Shown piece by piece: positions 31,848 through 49,453 of a stretch of 54,461 nucleotides of DNA. The notes under the pieces were generated by a model. That model was given only the letters and a program-made list of their open reading frames with translations. It had not been told where the DNA came from and ran no database searches. Position 1 is the stretch's first letter. Every line of letters starts with the position of its first letter. Both the position numbers and the translations under genes were made by a program. This stretch comes from a bacterium (GTDB lineage: Bacteria; Myxococcota_A; UBA9160; SZUA-336), in assembly GCA_024226335.1 (NCBI GenBank), contig JAAELY010000054.1:1-54461 (forward strand), written 5' to 3'.

Positions 31848-33320
31848 TCATTCGGAATCTCCAGAAGGCACGGCCTTGTGCCAGTCCGTCTGACGTTGGA
31901 AAGCGTCTCCAATTCGCAAGAGAGTCTGTTCGTCGAGCGCTCGCCCCAGTAACTGGAAGCCCACCGGCAAGCCCGAGGCAGTGAATCCGCAGGGCAGGGC
32001 GATTCCCGGAAGCCCCGCCAGGTTCAGCGTGACCGTGAAGATGTCGGACATGTACATCTGCAGGGGATCCGCCGTGCGCTCGCCGAGTGGCCAGGCCGGT
32101 CCCGGCGTCGCAGGAGATGCCAGAACGTCGCAGACCTCGAAGGCGCGCGCGAAATCCCGGCGGATCAGTGTGCGCACCTGTTGCGCCTTGCGGTAGTACG
32201 CGTCGTAGTAACCGGCCGACAGTACATAGGTGCCGAGGATGATCCGCCGCTTGACCTCGGCGCCAAAACCTTCGGAACGCGTGCGGCGATACATCTCGTC
32301 GAGTTGATCGGATTCGGCGCGAAAGCCAAACTTCACACCGTCGTAGCGCGACAGGTTCGAAGAGGCTTCGGCGGTGCAGATCAGATAGTAGGTGGCGATG
32401 CCGAACTCACTGTGAGGCAGCGAAACGGGCACCGTCTTGGCACCCATGCTCTCCAGAGTGCTGACCGCCTCGCGCACCTTGAGCAGGACTTCGGGATCGA
32501 TGCCCTCTTCACTGAAGAGCTCTTCGGGAATCCCGATCCGCAGGCCTTCGACGGAACCGTCGAGACCTGCCGAGAACCTTGGCACCTCGCGTGGCACCGA
32601 CGTGGCGTCCTTGGGATCGTGCCCGCAGATCGTTTCGAGCAGGAGCGCCGAATCCTCGACCGAGTGTGAGAATGTTCCGATCTGGTCGAGCGAACTGGCA
32701 AACGCGACCAACCCGTAGCGAGACACCCGTCCGTAGGTCGGCTTGATGCCGACCACGCCGCAAAGTGCCGCCGGCTGCCGGATGGAACCGCCCGTGTCCG
32801 AACCCAGGGTTGCCGGTACCTGTCGCGCGGCGACGGCGGCGGCACTGCCGCCGCTCGAACCGCCGGGCACGCAGTCGGTGTTCCAGGGATTGCGCGTGGG
32901 TCCGTACGCGGAGTTCTCGCACGAAGAGCCCATTGCGAACTCGTCCATGTTTGTCGAGCCGACCACGATCATTCCGGCTTCGCGCAGTTTGCGCAATACC
33001 GTGGCTTCGTAGGGGGCGCGGAAGCCCTTCAAGATGCGCGAGCCGCAGGTGGTTTCGAATTCGGGACTCGCCAGGATGCCCTTGATGGCGATCGGCAATC
33101 CGTGCAGCGCCGAGCGGACTTCGCCCGCAGAGCGCTCGCGATCGGCTTCGTCCGCAGCCCGAAGCGCCGCCTCGGCGCGCACTTCGGAGAATGCCCCCAG
33201 CAAGTCATCGCTGGATTCGATCCGTTCCAGGCAATCCGCCACGATCTCGCGGCTGGAGAGCTCCCCACTTTCCAGGCTCGCACTCAGCGAACTCAGGGTT
33301 CTGGCCGAGAGCCGGCTCAA
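31848..33320 (-). CDS. gatA: Asp-tRNA(Asn)/Glu-tRNA(Gln) amidotransferase subunit A
   Basis: GatA hydrolyses glutamine and passes ammonia to GatB for tRNA-dependent Asn or Gln formation. The 490 residues keep the Ser-cisSer-Lys triad of the amidase signature family: Lys80 in PIAIKGIL, Ser155 in GGSSGGSAAAVAA and Ser179 in GSDTGGSIRQPAA. TTG 33320 is chosen as the start because it overlaps the gatC stop codon in TTGA and gives the usual length; the open frame continues through gatC to 33746. The subunit order C-A is normal; gatB is not in the window. Confidence 0.95.
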   Translation of the reverse strand: MSRLSARTLSSLSASLESGELSSREIVADCLERIESSDDLLGAFSEVRAEAALRAADEADRERSAGEVRSALHGLPIAIKGILASPEFETTCGSRILKGFRAPYEATVLRKLREAGMIVVGSTNMDEFAMGSSCENSAYGPTRNPWNTDCVPGGSSGGSAAAVAARQVPATLGSDTGGSIRQPAALCGVVGIKPTYGRVSRYGLVAFASSLDQIGTFSHSVEDSALLLETICGHDPKDATSVPREVPRFSAGLDGSVEGLRIGIPEELFSEEGIDPEVLLKVREAVSTLESMGAKTVPVSLPHSEFGIATYYLICTAEASSNLSRYDGVKFGFRAESDQLDEMYRRTRSEGFGAEVKRRIILGTYVLSAGYYDAYYRKAQQVRTLIRRDFARAFEVCDVLASPATPGPAWPLGERTADPLQMYMSDIFTVTLNLAGLPGIALPCGFTASGLPVGFQLLGRALDEQTLLRIGDAFQRQTDWHKAVPSGDSE

Positions 33321-33604
33321 TCGAGCACCTTGGGTACGACCATGGCGTGGTCGGTGTGTTCGGGCGCGTTGCGAACGGCTTCTTCCGGTGTGAGTACACC
33401 CGAGATTTCGTCGGCGCGCAGGGGAGTTTCGATCTCCAGAACATGGGTCGTCGCTTCGACTTCGGACGTGTCGAGTTCTTCGAGCTTCGCCATGTATTCC
33501 AGGATCTGATTCATGTCGCGCTGCAGTCCGGCCACCTCGCCCTCGTCGAGATTCAGATTGGCTAGCTGCGCGACGCTCAAAACGGTGTCGAGATTGATCT
33601 TCAT
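33317..33604 (-). CDS. gatC: Asp-tRNA(Asn)/Glu-tRNA(Gln) amidotransferase subunit C
   Basis: A 95-residue belt protein that holds GatA and GatB together. The motif set is typical: TVLSVAQLANLNLDEGEVAGLQRDMNQILEYMAKLEELDTSEVEATTHV and the ending DEISGVLTPEEAVRNAPEHTDHAMVVPKVL. It starts at ATG 33604, 77 bases after the pafA-like stop, and overlaps gatA by four bases. The frame is open far upstream (to 34438), but that part is antisense to nothing and in fact is a shadow of the pafA-like gene. Confidence 0.95.
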   Translation of the reverse strand: MKINLDTVLSVAQLANLNLDEGEVAGLQRDMNQILEYMAKLEELDTSEVEATTHVLEIETPLRADEISGVLTPEEAVRNAPEHTDHAMVVPKVLD

Positions 33605-33681: not shown

Positions 33682-35469
33682 CTAGCGGTCCTCGTCGTCC
33701 TGGGGGTCGAGTGGGTCTCGGAAGAAGCGCCAGTCCAGTTTCCCAAGCCTTACGCGATGCCAGGCGGCGTGGCCCGAAGCCGCATGTGCGTGCGCCCATT
33801 TGATCGCCTGACCCCGCGCCCAGGCGCGCGTATTGCGCGGTGGCTCGGTGCGCGCGCGCTCCACTTCGGTCGGCTGGCTGATGCGGAGCATTTCTCCCTG
33901 GCGCTCGAGGCGCCTGTAGCCGCCCCGCGGGCCGAGTTCGTGGTAGCGCAGGTCGGTCTTCCAGGCGCGAAACGCCAGATCCCGAAGCCTTCGCTCCGCA
34001 TCTGTATTCACCGCTCGAGCCGTCAGCCGTTCGCCCCGCTGCTCCAACTCCATGCGATCGGCGGGGTCGGGTACCTGCGCGTGTACCTGGCGCCGTTTGG
34101 CCAGCCAGTCGATGCGATCGCAAAGCGATTCGGGATCGCGCTCCAGCGCCTCCAGGGTTTCGCCCCAGCTGTGCAACACGCGGTTCTTCCAGGCATCGGT
34201 CGTCGCACCTTCCTCGGACAGTGCGCGACTCACCAGTGTGTAGTAACGGCGTTGCAACTCCAGGGCCGTGGCGCTCGAGCCGTCGAGGAGTTCGAGGCGG
34301 GTCTCCAGTTGCGGATCGTCGTTGACCCGGATGAGTGCGTCCATCGGATCGGCGAGTTCGGGCCAATCCCTCACCTTCCCCGCCTCGATCGCTTCCAGTA
34401 CCAGGGCTGTCGTGCCCACGCGCAAGACCTGCGCCCATTCCGAGAGGTTCGCGTCGCCGATCAAGAGATGTAGCCGTCGATGGCGTCGCAAGGGCGACCA
34501 GGGAAAGAAGAACAGATCGCGCATTTCAAAGATCGGCCGATCATCGCCTTCGGGAAAGATGCGGGCGAGTGACTTCAGGAACGGGGGTCGTTGCGCCAGA
34601 CGCACCAGTGGTCCGCCGTCGAAACGCACGGCTCCGGCACCTGTGAACAATGTGCGCGTGATCAGGTGTGCAGTCAGATTGCGCCGGATGTCGCGCAAGA
34701 AGAACAGATTGTAGAGATGCGAGTGCACTCGCATCAGTCCGTAGAGTGGACCGACGAGCCATTGCAGACGGCGCGCATAACGACCCGGCTGGGTTTCGAT
34801 ATCGCGTGAAAACCGACCGAGCGCGTCGAGGATCGACCAGCCCGCACGCGGCCACACTCGGCGCAAGAGACTCCCGAGCAGGAGCAGGCTCAATCCGAGC
34901 AGACCGCCCGCGATCAGCACAGCAATCTGCAGCGCGAAGACCGCAGCGATGACTGGCGCCGAGATCGCCCAGAGCAAAAGCCACGGCGGCAGGAACAGCG
35001 CCAGCCGTCCCAAGGGAAGCGGATCTTCTACCCAGTAGCTCTCGTGTGAGCCGAAGGTGTGGCCTTGACTGTCGACGTTGTTCTTGCCCAGGCGCAACTC
35101 ACCGGTATACCCGGCGAGTTGCAAACGCCGATTCACGTCCTCGGCCAGGTCTTCCACGAGTTCGTCCTTGGCGCGCTCGTAGTGGATCAGCCGGTAGGGA
35201 TCGCGACACTCAGGGCTGGCCAGTTCCAGCAGTCCGTGCTCGTACTCCTGGGCCGTCGCCTCGTAGTGGAAGGTGCCGCCATTTTCCAGGAAGCGACCTC
35301 CCTTCGAACGCAGCGGCGAAAAAGCGTGGGGCAGACTGCCGATGCGGCGCAGCAAAACCGCCTCGAAGTGCCTGTAAAGCTGCAAGTTCGTCGGCCTTGG
35401 AAGATCCGAATTCCCCGGGTGGTAGATCAGGGCGTATTCGGTTTCGATTCCAACGACGCGTTGCCTCAT
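33682..35469 (-). CDS. PafA/Dop-family protein (Pup ligase/deamidase-like) with membrane insertion
   Basis: A 595-residue member of the PafA/Dop family, which fold like glutamine synthetase and ligate or remove Pup. Family hallmarks: GIETEY (7-12), KNNVDSQGHTFGSHESY (129-145), TRTLFTGAGAVRFDGG, RRLHLLIGDANLSEWAQVL (331-349), TTALVLEAIEAG, DRIDWLAKRR, and the C-terminal domain with LRGQAIKWA-like text. Two oddities: residues ~152-204 are a hydrophobic insertion (LALFLPPWLLLWAISAPVIAAVFALQIAVLIAGGLLG), enough for one or two membrane helices, and the catalytic Asp of PafA/Dop aligns with Glu70 (FHYEATAQ). Substrate and reaction are unknown. No Pup gene is nearby. First gene of an operon with gatC, gatA, asmA and mtnA. 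Confidence 0.88.
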   Translation of the reverse strand: MRQRVVGIETEYALIYHPGNSDLPRPTNLQLYRHFEAVLLRRIGSLPHAFSPLRSKGGRFLENGGTFHYEATAQEYEHGLLELASPECRDPYRLIHYERAKDELVEDLAEDVNRRLQLAGYTGELRLGKNNVDSQGHTFGSHESYWVEDPLPLGRLALFLPPWLLLWAISAPVIAAVFALQIAVLIAGGLLGLSLLLLGSLLRRVWPRAGWSILDALGRFSRDIETQPGRYARRLQWLVGPLYGLMRVHSHLYNLFFLRDIRRNLTAHLITRTLFTGAGAVRFDGGPLVRLAQRPPFLKSLARIFPEGDDRPIFEMRDLFFFPWSPLRRHRRLHLLIGDANLSEWAQVLRVGTTALVLEAIEAGKVRDWPELADPMDALIRVNDDPQLETRLELLDGSSATALELQRRYYTLVSRALSEEGATTDAWKNRVLHSWGETLEALERDPESLCDRIDWLAKRRQVHAQVPDPADRMELEQRGERLTARAVNTDAERRLRDLAFRAWKTDLRYHELGPRGGYRRLERQGEMLRISQPTEVERARTEPPRNTRAWARGQAIKWAHAHAASGHAAWHRVRLGKLDWRFFRDPLDPQDDEDR

Positions 35470-35504: not shown

Positions 35505-35531
35505 TTCTTCCAGGCTTGCTAAGCTTTGCAA

Positions 35532-36407
35532 ATGCCCGAACTGCCCGAGGTGGAGGTCACGCGCAGATGCATCGCGCCTTTTCTGGTGGGGCGACGCATC
35601 GCCGAAGTGCGCACGACCTCCAATAGCTACTTCTTCCTGACCCGACCCGAACAGCTGCGCCGCGGCCTGACCGGTCGCACTGTCGTTCGACTGGTCCGTC
35701 GGGGAAAGTACCTGGTTGCGGAGCTGGACGATCATCAGCGACTGCTCCTGCACCTGGGCATGACGGGACAGCTCTTCGCCGACGGAGCGAGCAGTGTGAG
35801 GCTGATGTCCGCGACCGCGCGCGCAGCTCTCTCGCCGGAAGAGCAGATGCAGTTTCAGCCCGATCGGCACACACACGTCCAGATCGGGTTCGATGACGCC
35901 GGCCAGCGGGTGTTCTTCCGCGACGTGCGCAAATTCGGGAAGATCCGCCTCTTGAAGCCCGACCAATCCGATCCGCGTCTCGACAAGCTCGGTGTCGATG
36001 CACTGGAAGCGTCGAGCGAGCACCTCTACGAGGGAACCCGCGGCCGCAAGCTCGCGATCAAGACCCTTCTGCTCTCCCAGTCGATCGTGGCGGGCATCGG
36101 CAATATCTACGCCGACGAAGCGCTGTTTGGCGCCGGCATCCGTCCCTCGAAACGCGCCGGTCGGCTCACGCGCCCCGATTGCCAGCGCATCCTCGAAGCC
36201 GCGAAAGCGGTGATGCTGCGTTCCATCGAAATGGGCGGCTCCAGCATCAGCGATTTCGTGGCCCCCGACGGCAGTGATGGTGCCTATCAGGATGAGCGCC
36301 ACGTGTACGCCCGCACCGGCGAGCCGTGCACGGTCTGCGATACGCCGATCAAGCGTTCCGTCCTCGGGGCTCGCGCTAGCCACTTCTGCCCCAGCTGCCA
36401 GCATTGA
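35532..36407 (+). CDS. mutM: Formamidopyrimidine-DNA glycosylase
   Basis: A DNA repair enzyme removing 8-oxoguanine and formamidopyrimidines by base excision with AP lyase activity. The mature N-terminus PELPEVE (Pro2, Glu3, Glu6) is the catalytic site. The 291-residue protein also has LLLHLGMTGQL, FRDVRKFGKI, VAGIGNIYADEALFGAGIRP (helix-two-turn-helix) and a C-terminal zinc finger CTVCDTPIKRSVLGARASHFCPSC. ATG 35532 must be the start, since Pro2 is the nucleophile. The divergent neighbour is the pafA-like gene. Confidence 0.96.
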   Translation: MPELPEVEVTRRCIAPFLVGRRIAEVRTTSNSYFFLTRPEQLRRGLTGRTVVRLVRRGKYLVAELDDHQRLLLHLGMTGQLFADGASSVRLMSATARAALSPEEQMQFQPDRHTHVQIGFDDAGQRVFFRDVRKFGKIRLLKPDQSDPRLDKLGVDALEASSEHLYEGTRGRKLAIKTLLLSQSIVAGIGNIYADEALFGAGIRPSKRAGRLTRPDCQRILEAAKAVMLRSIEMGGSSISDFVAPDGSDGAYQDERHVYARTGEPCTVCDTPIKRSVLGARASHFCPSCQH

Positions 36408-47334: not shown

Positions 47335-47465
47335 TCCGTCTCCGGCGGTGATCGCTGGGTCCCGGCTGGTGGGGAGATCGTGAATCCGCCAGGTCCGGAA
47401 GGAAGCAACGGCAGCGTTTCGCTTCAGGTAGTCGGATCGGCCCAGCGATCACCGACGGAGATGGA
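47335..47465 (+). ncRNA. ffs: Signal recognition particle RNA (4.5S-type)
   Basis: The RNA partner of Ffh in co-translational targeting. The universal core CAGGTCCGGAAGGAAGCA is at about 47390-47406, within the asymmetric-loop apical domain. The two ends form a long helix: GTGATCGCTGGG (47348-47359) pairs with CCCAGCGATCAC (47441-47452), and the terminal TCCGTCTCCG with CGGAGATGGA, extending the stem to about 47335/47465. It lies just before dnaX, the common genomic place for ffs. Exact ends are inferred from pairing. Confidence 0.93.
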
Positions 47466-47489: not shown

Positions 47490-49106
47490 ATGAGTTACGA
47501 GGTTCTCGCACGACGCTGGCGGCCGCAGACCTTTGACGAGGTCTACGGTCAGAAGCACGTCACCACGGCCCTGGCCAATGCGATCCGTCTGGGTCGCATG
47601 CCCCATGCCCTTTTGCTGTGCGGACCGCGTGGCGTGGGCAAGACGACGCTGGCGCGCATTCTGGCGCGCGCCCTGAACTGCGACCAGGGACCGACCGAAA
47701 AACCCTGCGGCGAGTGCACGCCGTGCAAGGAGATCGCCGCCGGTACCTCGCTCGACGTGCAGGAAATCGACGCCGCCAGCAATACCGGTGTCGACAGCGT
47801 CCGCGAGGTGCGCGAGTCGATCCGCTACGCCGCCGCGCCCGGCAAGCACCGCATCTACGTGATCGACGAGGTGCATATGCTCTCGACTGCGGCCTTCAAC
47901 GCCCTGTTGAAGACGCTCGAGGAGCCGCCGCCCGGCAGCCTGTTCGTGCTCGCGACCACCGACCCCCAGAAGATTCCCGCGACCGTGCTCTCGCGCGTGC
48001 AGCGCTTCGACCTCAAGCGCATCGGCCCCGCCGAAGTCCTCGAACGCCTGACCGAGATCGTCACGACCGACGCCATCCAGATTCCCGAGTCGGTTCTGCG
48101 CGCGCTCGTGCGCGAGGGCGACGGCAGTCTGCGCGACGCGCTCACACTGCTCGACCGTCTGTCGAGTGCGCTCGGCAATCAGATCGACGAGGCGGACGCC
48201 ATGGCGATTCTCGATCTGATCGATCGACGCATCCTGGCCGACATCCTCGATCCGGTCCTGCAACAGGATCCCGCTGCGGCACTGCTCGCGGTGCGGCGTG
48301 CCTTCGACAAGGGGATCGAGCCGGCGCGTCTGGCGGCCGATCTTCTGGCCTCGTTGCGCGACCTGCTGGTGGCGCGTCTCGTCGACGATTCGCAGCCGCT
48401 GATCGACGTGGCTCCCGACGAACTGGAAGAACTCCGCACCCGCGCCAGACCTCACGAACCCGAGACGCTCCAGCGTCTGTTCCGCGTACTGCTTTCGCGC
48501 AACCAGGATTTGAATTTCGCACCGCGGCCCGAGCAGGTGCTCGAGATGGCGATCGTGCGACTCGCAACCCTGCCGAGTGCCCAGGCCCTGGGCTCGCTCA
48601 TCCAGAGGCTCGAAGCGCTCGAGAATGGCGGGTCCGGTGGCTCGGATCCCGCGGGTCTGGATACGCGCGGCGGTGCTCCCAGGCGCGGCGGCCCAGGCCC
48701 GCGACGCAGCGGGGCTTCCGCATCGGCGAAGCCGGCGAACCCGCCGCCCAGCGCCCGAGCCGTGCCCGAGCCGCCTCGCGCGAGCGCTTCGTCCGGAATC
48801 TCAACTACCGAAATCGCAGAGTTCAAAACTGCAAAGTCCGGAGCCGCAGAGTCCGGAGCCGTAAAGGCGGAAATCGCAGAGCCCGAAATCGAAGAGATAC
48901 CGATTCCGCAGGAACCGCCGCCGGACACGTACGCGGAGCCCGTGCCGATTGCCCCCCCCCTTCCGCGTCGCGATCCCGAGTTCGAAAGACGCCTGCGCCA
49001 GGAATCGAAGAGCCATCCTCTCGTATTGCAGATGATTGAGTCACTCGACGCGGAGCTGCGCGAAATCCGCACACCGCGCGCGCCTATAAGTGGAGATCCG
49101 TCGTGA
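47490..49106 (+). CDS. dnaX: DNA polymerase III subunit gamma/tau
   Basis: The clamp-loader ATPase subunit, 538 residues. The AAA+ part has MSYEVLARRWRPQTFDEVYGQKHV, the P-loop GPRGVGKTTL (45-54), four zinc Cys (64, 73, 76, 79), DEVHMLSTAAFNALLKTLEEPP and the SRVQRFDLKRI sensor. A Pro/Ala/Glu-rich linker follows from ~400, with short imperfect repeats (SGAAESGAVKAEIAEPEIEE). A run of nine C near 48952-48960 lies in the linker. The C-terminus is shorter than E. coli tau. Stop overlaps the ebfC start (GTGA). It is 25 bases after the SRP RNA. Confidence 0.96.
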   Translation: MSYEVLARRWRPQTFDEVYGQKHVTTALANAIRLGRMPHALLLCGPRGVGKTTLARILARALNCDQGPTEKPCGECTPCKEIAAGTSLDVQEIDAASNTGVDSVREVRESIRYAAAPGKHRIYVIDEVHMLSTAAFNALLKTLEEPPPGSLFVLATTDPQKIPATVLSRVQRFDLKRIGPAEVLERLTEIVTTDAIQIPESVLRALVREGDGSLRDALTLLDRLSSALGNQIDEADAMAILDLIDRRILADILDPVLQQDPAAALLAVRRAFDKGIEPARLAADLLASLRDLLVARLVDDSQPLIDVAPDELEELRTRARPHEPETLQRLFRVLLSRNQDLNFAPRPEQVLEMAIVRLATLPSAQALGSLIQRLEALENGGSGGSDPAGLDTRGGAPRRGGPGPRRSGASASAKPANPPPSARAVPEPPRASASSGISTTEIAEFKTAKSGAAESGAVKAEIAEPEIEEIPIPQEPPPDTYAEPVPIAPPLPRRDPEFERRLRQESKSHPLVLQMIESLDAELREIRTPRAPISGDPS

Positions 49107-49453
49107 GTCAGCCGCCGTTCGATATGAATCAGGTCATGAAACAGGCCCAGGAGATGGGCGGAAAGCTCAAGCGCCTGCAGGAAGAGCTCAAGCACCGGAG
49201 CGTCGACGTGACCGTCGGCGGCGGAATGGTCGAAGCGACCGTCAACGGTGCAATGGAACTCGTGAACCTGCGCATCGATCCCCAGGCCGTGGATCCGCGC
49301 GATGTCGAGATGTTGCAGGACCTGATCCGCGCCGCGGTCAATCAGGGCATGGTGCGCGCGAAAGAGATGATGCAGCAGGAGATGCAACAGTTGACGGGCA
49401 TGCCTCCCGGTATGCTCGACGGCGTGCTCCCGGGTATGGGTGGCGGCGAGTGA
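49103..49453 (+). CDS. ebfC: YbaB/EbfC nucleoid-associated protein
   Basis: A 116-residue DNA-binding protein: MSQPPFDMNQVMKQAQEMGGKLKRLQEELKHRSVDVTVGGGMVEATVNGAMELVNLRIDP, the family's tweezer-like dimer region, then a Met/Gln-rich helix (AKEMMQQEMQQLTGMPPGM) and a Gly-rich tail ending GMGGGE. GTG 49103 overlaps the dnaX stop. The recR start GTG at 49450 overlaps its own stop. It belongs to the standard dnaX-ebfC-recR recombination/replication operon. Confidence 0.94.
   Translation: MSQPPFDMNQVMKQAQEMGGKLKRLQEELKHRSVDVTVGGGMVEATVNGAMELVNLRIDPQAVDPRDVEMLQDLIRAAVNQGMVRAKEMMQQEMQQLTGMPPGMLDGVLPGMGGGE

Follow-up and report, generated by a model that had tools for sequence, protein, structure and literature searches.

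Membrane-inserted Pup ligases were described by Iyer, Burroughs and Aravind (2008), who noted four transmembrane segments in the Plesiocystis and Rhodopirellula enzymes, placed just behind core strand 4 (PMC2588565). These ligases are encoded beside Pup and a membrane-protein gene, are unlinked to proteasome genes, and were proposed to be able to tag membrane proteins; the same work stated that Pup neighbours every PafA gene then known (PMC2588565). A literature search for later work on membrane Pup ligases returned only this 2008 paper, two later reviews being silent on membrane forms, and the prediction seems to have had no experimental follow-up in the literature searched. Throughout the experimental literature that we searched, the pupylation enzymes are soluble and comprise one PafA and one Dop. 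Here we analyzed a PafA/Dop-family gene within a 54,461-nucleotide stretch of bacterial DNA (the window). The gene departs from the 2008 rule in that it has no Pup neighbour, and it also shares its genome with a canonical system. A first-pass annotation made from the DNA letters had taken the protein to be of an unknown kind, a view that we withdraw, since Pup ligases whose transmembrane insertions occupy this position had already been described in 2008.

The annotation had also credited the protein with the full PafA/Dop plan, and this was borne out. Its product matched the Pfam Pup_ligase profile PF03136 from end to end (1.3e-84; 285 bits against a cut-off of 25; profile positions 1-440 of 441), its predicted fold is that of Dop and PafA, and the named landmarks (GIETEY, KNNVDSQGHTFGSHESY, GDANLSE and the C-terminal domain) are all present. 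Scores against the NCBIfam equivalog models for PafA (TIGR03686; 215 bits, cut-off 551) and Dop (TIGR03688; 207 bits, cut-off 492) fell well below their cut-offs, so the protein belongs to neither of these two standard types. By sequence (phmmer), the only solved structures matched were Dop and PafA. An AlphaFold2 (AF2) model, computed from the window protein plus eleven of its orthologues (those on named contigs), reached a mean pLDDT of 80.2 and a pTM of 0.84. Foldseek searches of the PDB with this model placed Dop (4b0r; ~1e-24) and PafA (4bjr; ~1e-23) on top, with the GCS2 family following weakly; TM-scores against Dop/PafA were 0.59 by query and 0.71-0.76 by target. Dop ranked slightly above PafA in both phmmer and Foldseek. 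The product is thus a PafA/Dop-family protein with a GS-like fold, and we regard it as very probably a membrane-anchored member of that family.

Table 1. Coordinates of the features discussed (window positions unless a locus is given; residue numbers are those of the window protein unless marked)
Feature	Position	Strand	Basis or remark
Membrane-inserted PafA/Dop-family protein (third paralogue)	33682..35469	-	ORF of 595 aa, ATG start; Pfam, AF2, Foldseek
Metal-binding Glu pair E9 + E11 of GhExE motif	35437..35445	-	aligned to Dop E8/E10
Glu70 codon, position of catalytic Asp (Dop D94, PafA D64)	35260..35262	-	alignment
His142 of strand-4 HxN motif	35044..35046	-	aligned to Dop H155; Asn N157 replaced by S144
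Clade-specific insertion, residues ~148-267, ~120 aa	34669..35028	-	alignment; right after core strand 4
Hydrophobic stretch, residues 151-205, predicted membrane hairpin	34855..35019	-	hydropathy, AF2 helices
gatC	33317..33604	-	~80 bp downstream, same strand; shared context in the window's family, functional link not implied
fpg (formamidopyrimidine-DNA glycosylase)	35526..36407	+	divergent neighbour
Own-genome Dop	L004 6149-7633		542 bits to 4b0r
Own-genome PafA	L004 9380-10786		344 bits to 4b0t
Rhomboid-linked loci	L085 6305-7876; L086 4141-6522; L088 1207-2805; L089 1086-2678; L087 1-1224	+	

We examined the proposed membrane segment by Kyte-Doolittle hydropathy together with the AF2 helices. 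From the HENY motif of strand 4 to the next helix, canonical PafA and Dop have 15 residues, compared with 119-132 in the window protein and its orthologues, a net excess of ~105 residues after core strand 4. An earlier estimate of a hydrophobic insertion of about 50 residues (~152-204) therefore captured the hydrophobic part (~151-205), but the whole insertion is more than twice that length. Within the hydrophobic part, 19-residue hydropathy peaked at residues 151-169 (1.57) and 173-191 (2.57), and residues 161 to 202 include no charged residue before R203, R204 and R208 follow. The best 19-residue mean was 2.36-3.05 across the 14 orthologues versus 0.74-1.47 across 26 canonical PafA/Dop proteins, all 26 of which lack the ~55-residue hydrophobic stretch; the insertion is thus absent from the soluble enzymes compared. 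AF2 modelled the insertion as one long helical stretch (153-205) followed by helices at 207-226 and 228-256, the latter two far less hydrophobic, and each orthologue showed one or two strongly hydrophobic segments. The insertion is therefore a hydrophobic, helical feature specific to the clade, consistent with the membrane-spanning role first assigned to it. Since it exits and re-enters one catalytic domain that needs cytoplasmic ATP, it would be expected to cross the membrane an even number of times, most simply as a hairpin.

The catalytic Asp of PafA and Dop has been proposed to act as base or nucleophile (PMC3511204), and in Dop residues R227, H241 and D94 have been tied to the phosphate site and R90 and Y92 to nucleotide positioning (PMC8599861). 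Glu70 of the window protein lies at the position of this Asp, as the first-pass annotation had proposed, and Glu occupies the position in all 14 orthologues. Among 82 columns invariant in 25 canonical PafA/Dop proteins, the window protein kept 54, including (Dop numbering) E8, E10, E99, E104, K142, D146, H155, E156, R180, R205, R227, D228, R238, R239, H241, D246, N248, R433 and W453. In its own numbering the retained residues include E9, E11, E82, H142, R294, R317, D318, R331, R332, H334, D339, N341 and R548, and the metal/ATP residues E9, E11, E82, H142, R294, R317, H334 and R548 were invariant across the 14 orthologues. The GhExE site is complete (GIETE); the HxN motif is only partly matched, with Dop N157 replaced by Ser in 12 of 14 orthologues (strand-4 motif HES in 12, HEN in two, the G005 orthologue being one that keeps HEN). 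Other altered positions (Dop numbering) are R90 (Thr), Y92 (His), H97, P98 and Y100, and the HPEY motif of PafA reads LLEL. Most Mg/ATP-site residues are therefore retained, together with Asp to Glu at position 70, Asn to Ser at position 144 and loss of the equivalents of Dop R90 and Y92. The distance from strand 1 to the NG motif is 50 residues, versus 69-76 in Dop and 37 in PafA, indicating that the window protein is without a Dop-loop. In three orthologues (G053, G012 and G281; loci L015, L016 and L088) the GDANLSE block has become ADAT... while metal-site residues are unchanged, and judging from this difference in sequence activity may possibly vary within the clade.

To place the protein we used a tree of 50 sequences (LG+C20; no outgroup) that included a different form of the family, found in 14 Myxococcota genomes of other families outside the class. 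The window type (14 sequences) and this other membrane form (11 Myxococcota sequences) each formed one group, and the two together were split from PafA plus Dop with support of 100/100; the same grouping and support were obtained from 43 sequences with the insert removed. The protein stays inside the PafA/Dop family in this tree, and the split upholds its assignment to a separate clade, as originally suggested. Provided that the root of this outgroup-free tree falls outside them, the membrane-inserted forms would be monophyletic, and the shared Asp to Glu change, the extra loop before (S/T)PECR and the insertion fit one origin.

The other Myxococcota form, the Plesiocystis-like sister group of the window type, was membrane-inserted in all 13 loci read (L094-L106) and is the sole PafA/Dop-family member found in each of its genomes. 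A short Pup lies directly upstream in 12 of the 13 loci, with a conserved tail (YL...VP.GGE) and, wherever the start was clear enough, a length of ~48-58 residues; because these Pups end in GGE, deamidation is not needed. The Pfam Pup profile PF05639 missed all of them. Examples of such short divergent Pups lie at L098 7100-7267 (+), L103 6904-7050 (+) and L104 9012-9176 (-). Sister-group genomes hold at most one proteasome-family gene, presumably HslV, and no 20S proteasome subunits were detected in them; most genomes that carry the canonical system have two or three such genes. Since the Pup profile misses the short Pups and no 20S was detected, the spread of proteasome-free pupylation is probably underestimated. 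Apart from Pup, the only recurring neighbour of the sister-group ligases was an NAD(P)-binding-like ORF near three loci.

The window's own genome (5.75 Mb in 556 contigs; 97% complete) presents a different setting. A whole-genome search recovered three PafA/Dop-family genes and one Pup, and on a single strand of another contig (C157) genes for the ARC/Mpa ATPase, Dop, Pup, the two proteasome subunits PrcB and PrcA, and PafA follow one another in this order. Beside this complete canonical operon, the window gene stands by itself as a third paralogue. The observation that no Pup or proteasome genes are in view is correct for the window and not for the genome, and the earlier picture of an enzyme without a Pup-proteasome background has to be given up. 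The Pup on C157 is 85 aa long and ends NYVQRGGE. No Pup gene was found near the orthologues (0 of 12 loci read), nor any small ORF with a GGE or GGQ end near the gene or its orthologues. Elsewhere in the window, a YbaB-like ORF (49103-49453, +; 116 aa) ends in ...GMGGGE; its sequence looks like that of the nucleoid-associated protein YbaB, and the likeness of its end to that of Pup is a coincidence. We considered a dedicated second Pup of the Plesiocystis kind and rejected it: a profile built from Plesiocystis-type Pups, which detects these Pups in the genomes they come from at 1e-8 to 1e-21, gave no convincing match in the 14 window-type genomes (best E 0.03, partial, inside a long ORF). Each of the 11 window-type genomes with a completeness of 82% or more has the canonical Pup. 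Pup is found in 78 of 91 genomes of the class anyway, so this co-occurrence of membrane ligase and canonical system is uninformative.

Full-length orthologues occur in 14 of the 91 genomes of the class searched, at 47-64% identity; the eleven whose contigs carry names (one scan) are all from metagenome-assembled genomes, mostly labelled Deltaproteobacteria or Myxococcota. In the window's family the gene adjoins gatC-gatA and, in most genomes, fpg. The corresponding site is empty in G009, G008 and G003, where fpg lies directly beside gatC (loci L144, L145 and L147), while in G006 thiI lies beside gatC; G008 and G009 share genera with the carriers G010 and G007. Such precise empty sites in relatives indicate an accessory gene that is gained or lost as a whole. 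Among four close orthologues dN/dS was 0.10-0.26, and in the closest pair it was 0.15 in the insert and 0.09 elsewhere, low values which indicate that insert and remainder are both maintained by purifying selection. All five readable loci from another family in the class have a rhomboid intramembrane protease gene immediately upstream of the ligase gene and in the same orientation, a sixth genome being left out of the count because its locus ends at a contig edge; this link is restricted to two genera and is absent at the window locus. The window additionally encodes a bacterial small SRP RNA (47353-47450, +; Rfam RF00169, 52.8 bits).

We propose that the window protein is a membrane-tethered Pup ligase that uses the genome's ordinary Pup, a statement which, taken as a whole, we give an even chance of being correct. 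The insertion would form a hairpin in the cytoplasmic membrane and hold the catalytic domain on its cytoplasmic face, ATP would phosphorylate the gamma-carboxylate of the C-terminal Glu of ordinary Pup, and Glu70 would activate a lysine amine for attack on the phosphorylated Glu. Pup would in this way be joined to membrane or membrane-near proteins, which may then be extracted and degraded by the ARC-proteasome or be regulated by the tag. Ordinary Pup is the likely substrate because it is the only Pup found in the genome and already ends in Glu. Ligation rather than removal is suggested by the missing Dop-loop and, by homology, by the sister group, where a lone enzyme with a GGE-ending Pup should be the ligase; the rhomboid gene upstream in five genomes fits membrane-protein turnover. 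Several observations count against a ligase. HPEY and the equivalents of R90/Y92 and Asn157 of Dop are changed, the three orthologues named above also alter GDAN, the gene is unlinked to pup, and the rhomboid link does not extend beyond its two genera to the window locus. To our knowledge, Glu in place of Asp at the proposed catalytic base is not known to work, which likewise weighs against ligation.

The protein could instead be a Dop-like, membrane-tethered depupylase or deamidase that strips Pup from membrane proteins or shields them from degradation, opposing the soluble PafA. PafA and Dop have a common active site and few changes interconvert them (PMC7947786), Dop scores slightly better in phmmer and Foldseek, and with a Glu-ended Pup in the genome an extra enzyme is unneeded for deamidation and could reverse tagging. 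Such an enzyme would nevertheless have dispensed with a Dop-loop of normal length and with the Dop-typical DHAH/HPEY surroundings, and a ligase is required in the sister group with its single enzyme and GGE-ending Pup; we consider removal of Pup rather unlikely. The altered surroundings of the Pup end (HPEY lost, Asp to Glu) could also mean a changed substrate, the protein being a carboxylate-amine ligase that no longer serves the Pup pathway and acts on a different small peptide or amino acid. The lack of an adjoining Pup in all 12 orthologue loci read and of a second Pup in the genome would agree with this, yet the full Pup-ligase profile is matched, C-terminal domain included, Pup adjoins the ligase in 12 of 13 sister loci, and every sufficiently complete window-type genome has canonical Pup, making departure from the pathway improbable. 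Finally, the same replacement of the catalytic Asp, the changes at HPEY and Asn157, the further drift of the GDAN block in three orthologues, and the dispensability of the gene implied by precise empty sites could point to a pseudoenzyme. It would then act as a receptor without catalytic activity, binding Pup or proteins tagged with it and either drawing them to the membrane or withholding them from the proteasome. Against loss of catalysis stand metal and ATP residues that are invariant in 14 orthologues and the dN/dS of 0.09 outside the insert in the closest pair, and we judge a pseudoenzyme improbable as well.

Returning to the membrane-tethered ligase, some Myxococcota may run two parallel pupylation enzymes on one Pup: soluble PafA would serve the cytoplasm, and a membrane ligase, possibly coupled to rhomboid, would be dedicated to membrane proteins; we offer this scheme only tentatively. 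If true, it would give bacteria a counterpart to the sharing of tasks by soluble ubiquitin ligases and membrane-embedded ones that is seen in ER-associated degradation. The ATP site of the window type resembles the canonical site more than do those of the other membrane-inserted forms identified here, and the gene sits in a genome with a full Pup system, which makes the protein a good candidate for biochemistry. The gene allows one to ask whether a bacterium splits its tagging between cytoplasm and membrane.

The protein is real and conserved, and it represents the membrane-inserted Pup-ligase type as a third paralogue beside a full system rather than a new category. It is a membrane form that occurs alongside the soluble enzymes, a single Pup and a proteasome within the same genomes. 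With the membrane-inserted ligases of the 2008 work and of L094-L106 it shares the PafA/Dop fold, a hydrophobic insertion after core strand 4, Glu in place of Asp and a GL(I/L/V)E..(S/T)PECR block with an extra loop, where the likeness to the Plesiocystis and Rhodopirellula ligases follows the 2008 description and the Myxococcota relatives were compared by sequence. The sister ligases have lost H155, R205, R227, D228, H241 and R433 (Dop numbers), whereas the window type retains all six; the sister ligases are lone family members with Pup upstream (12 of 13) in genomes where no 20S was found, whereas the window type lacks a nearby Pup and has the full canonical system. Dop (PDB 4b0r and 9cku, and the genome's own copy) has a common domain plan and is the slightly best fold match, but differs in its Dop-loop, in a VDHAHPEY block with Asp, and in having no membrane insertion. 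Soluble PafA (PDB 4b0t/4bjr and the genome's own copy) has the domain plan, the Mg/ATP residues and the lack of a Dop-loop in common with the window protein, and differs from it in having no membrane insertion, in its catalytic Asp and HPEY motif, and in being encoded in the pup-proteasome operon.
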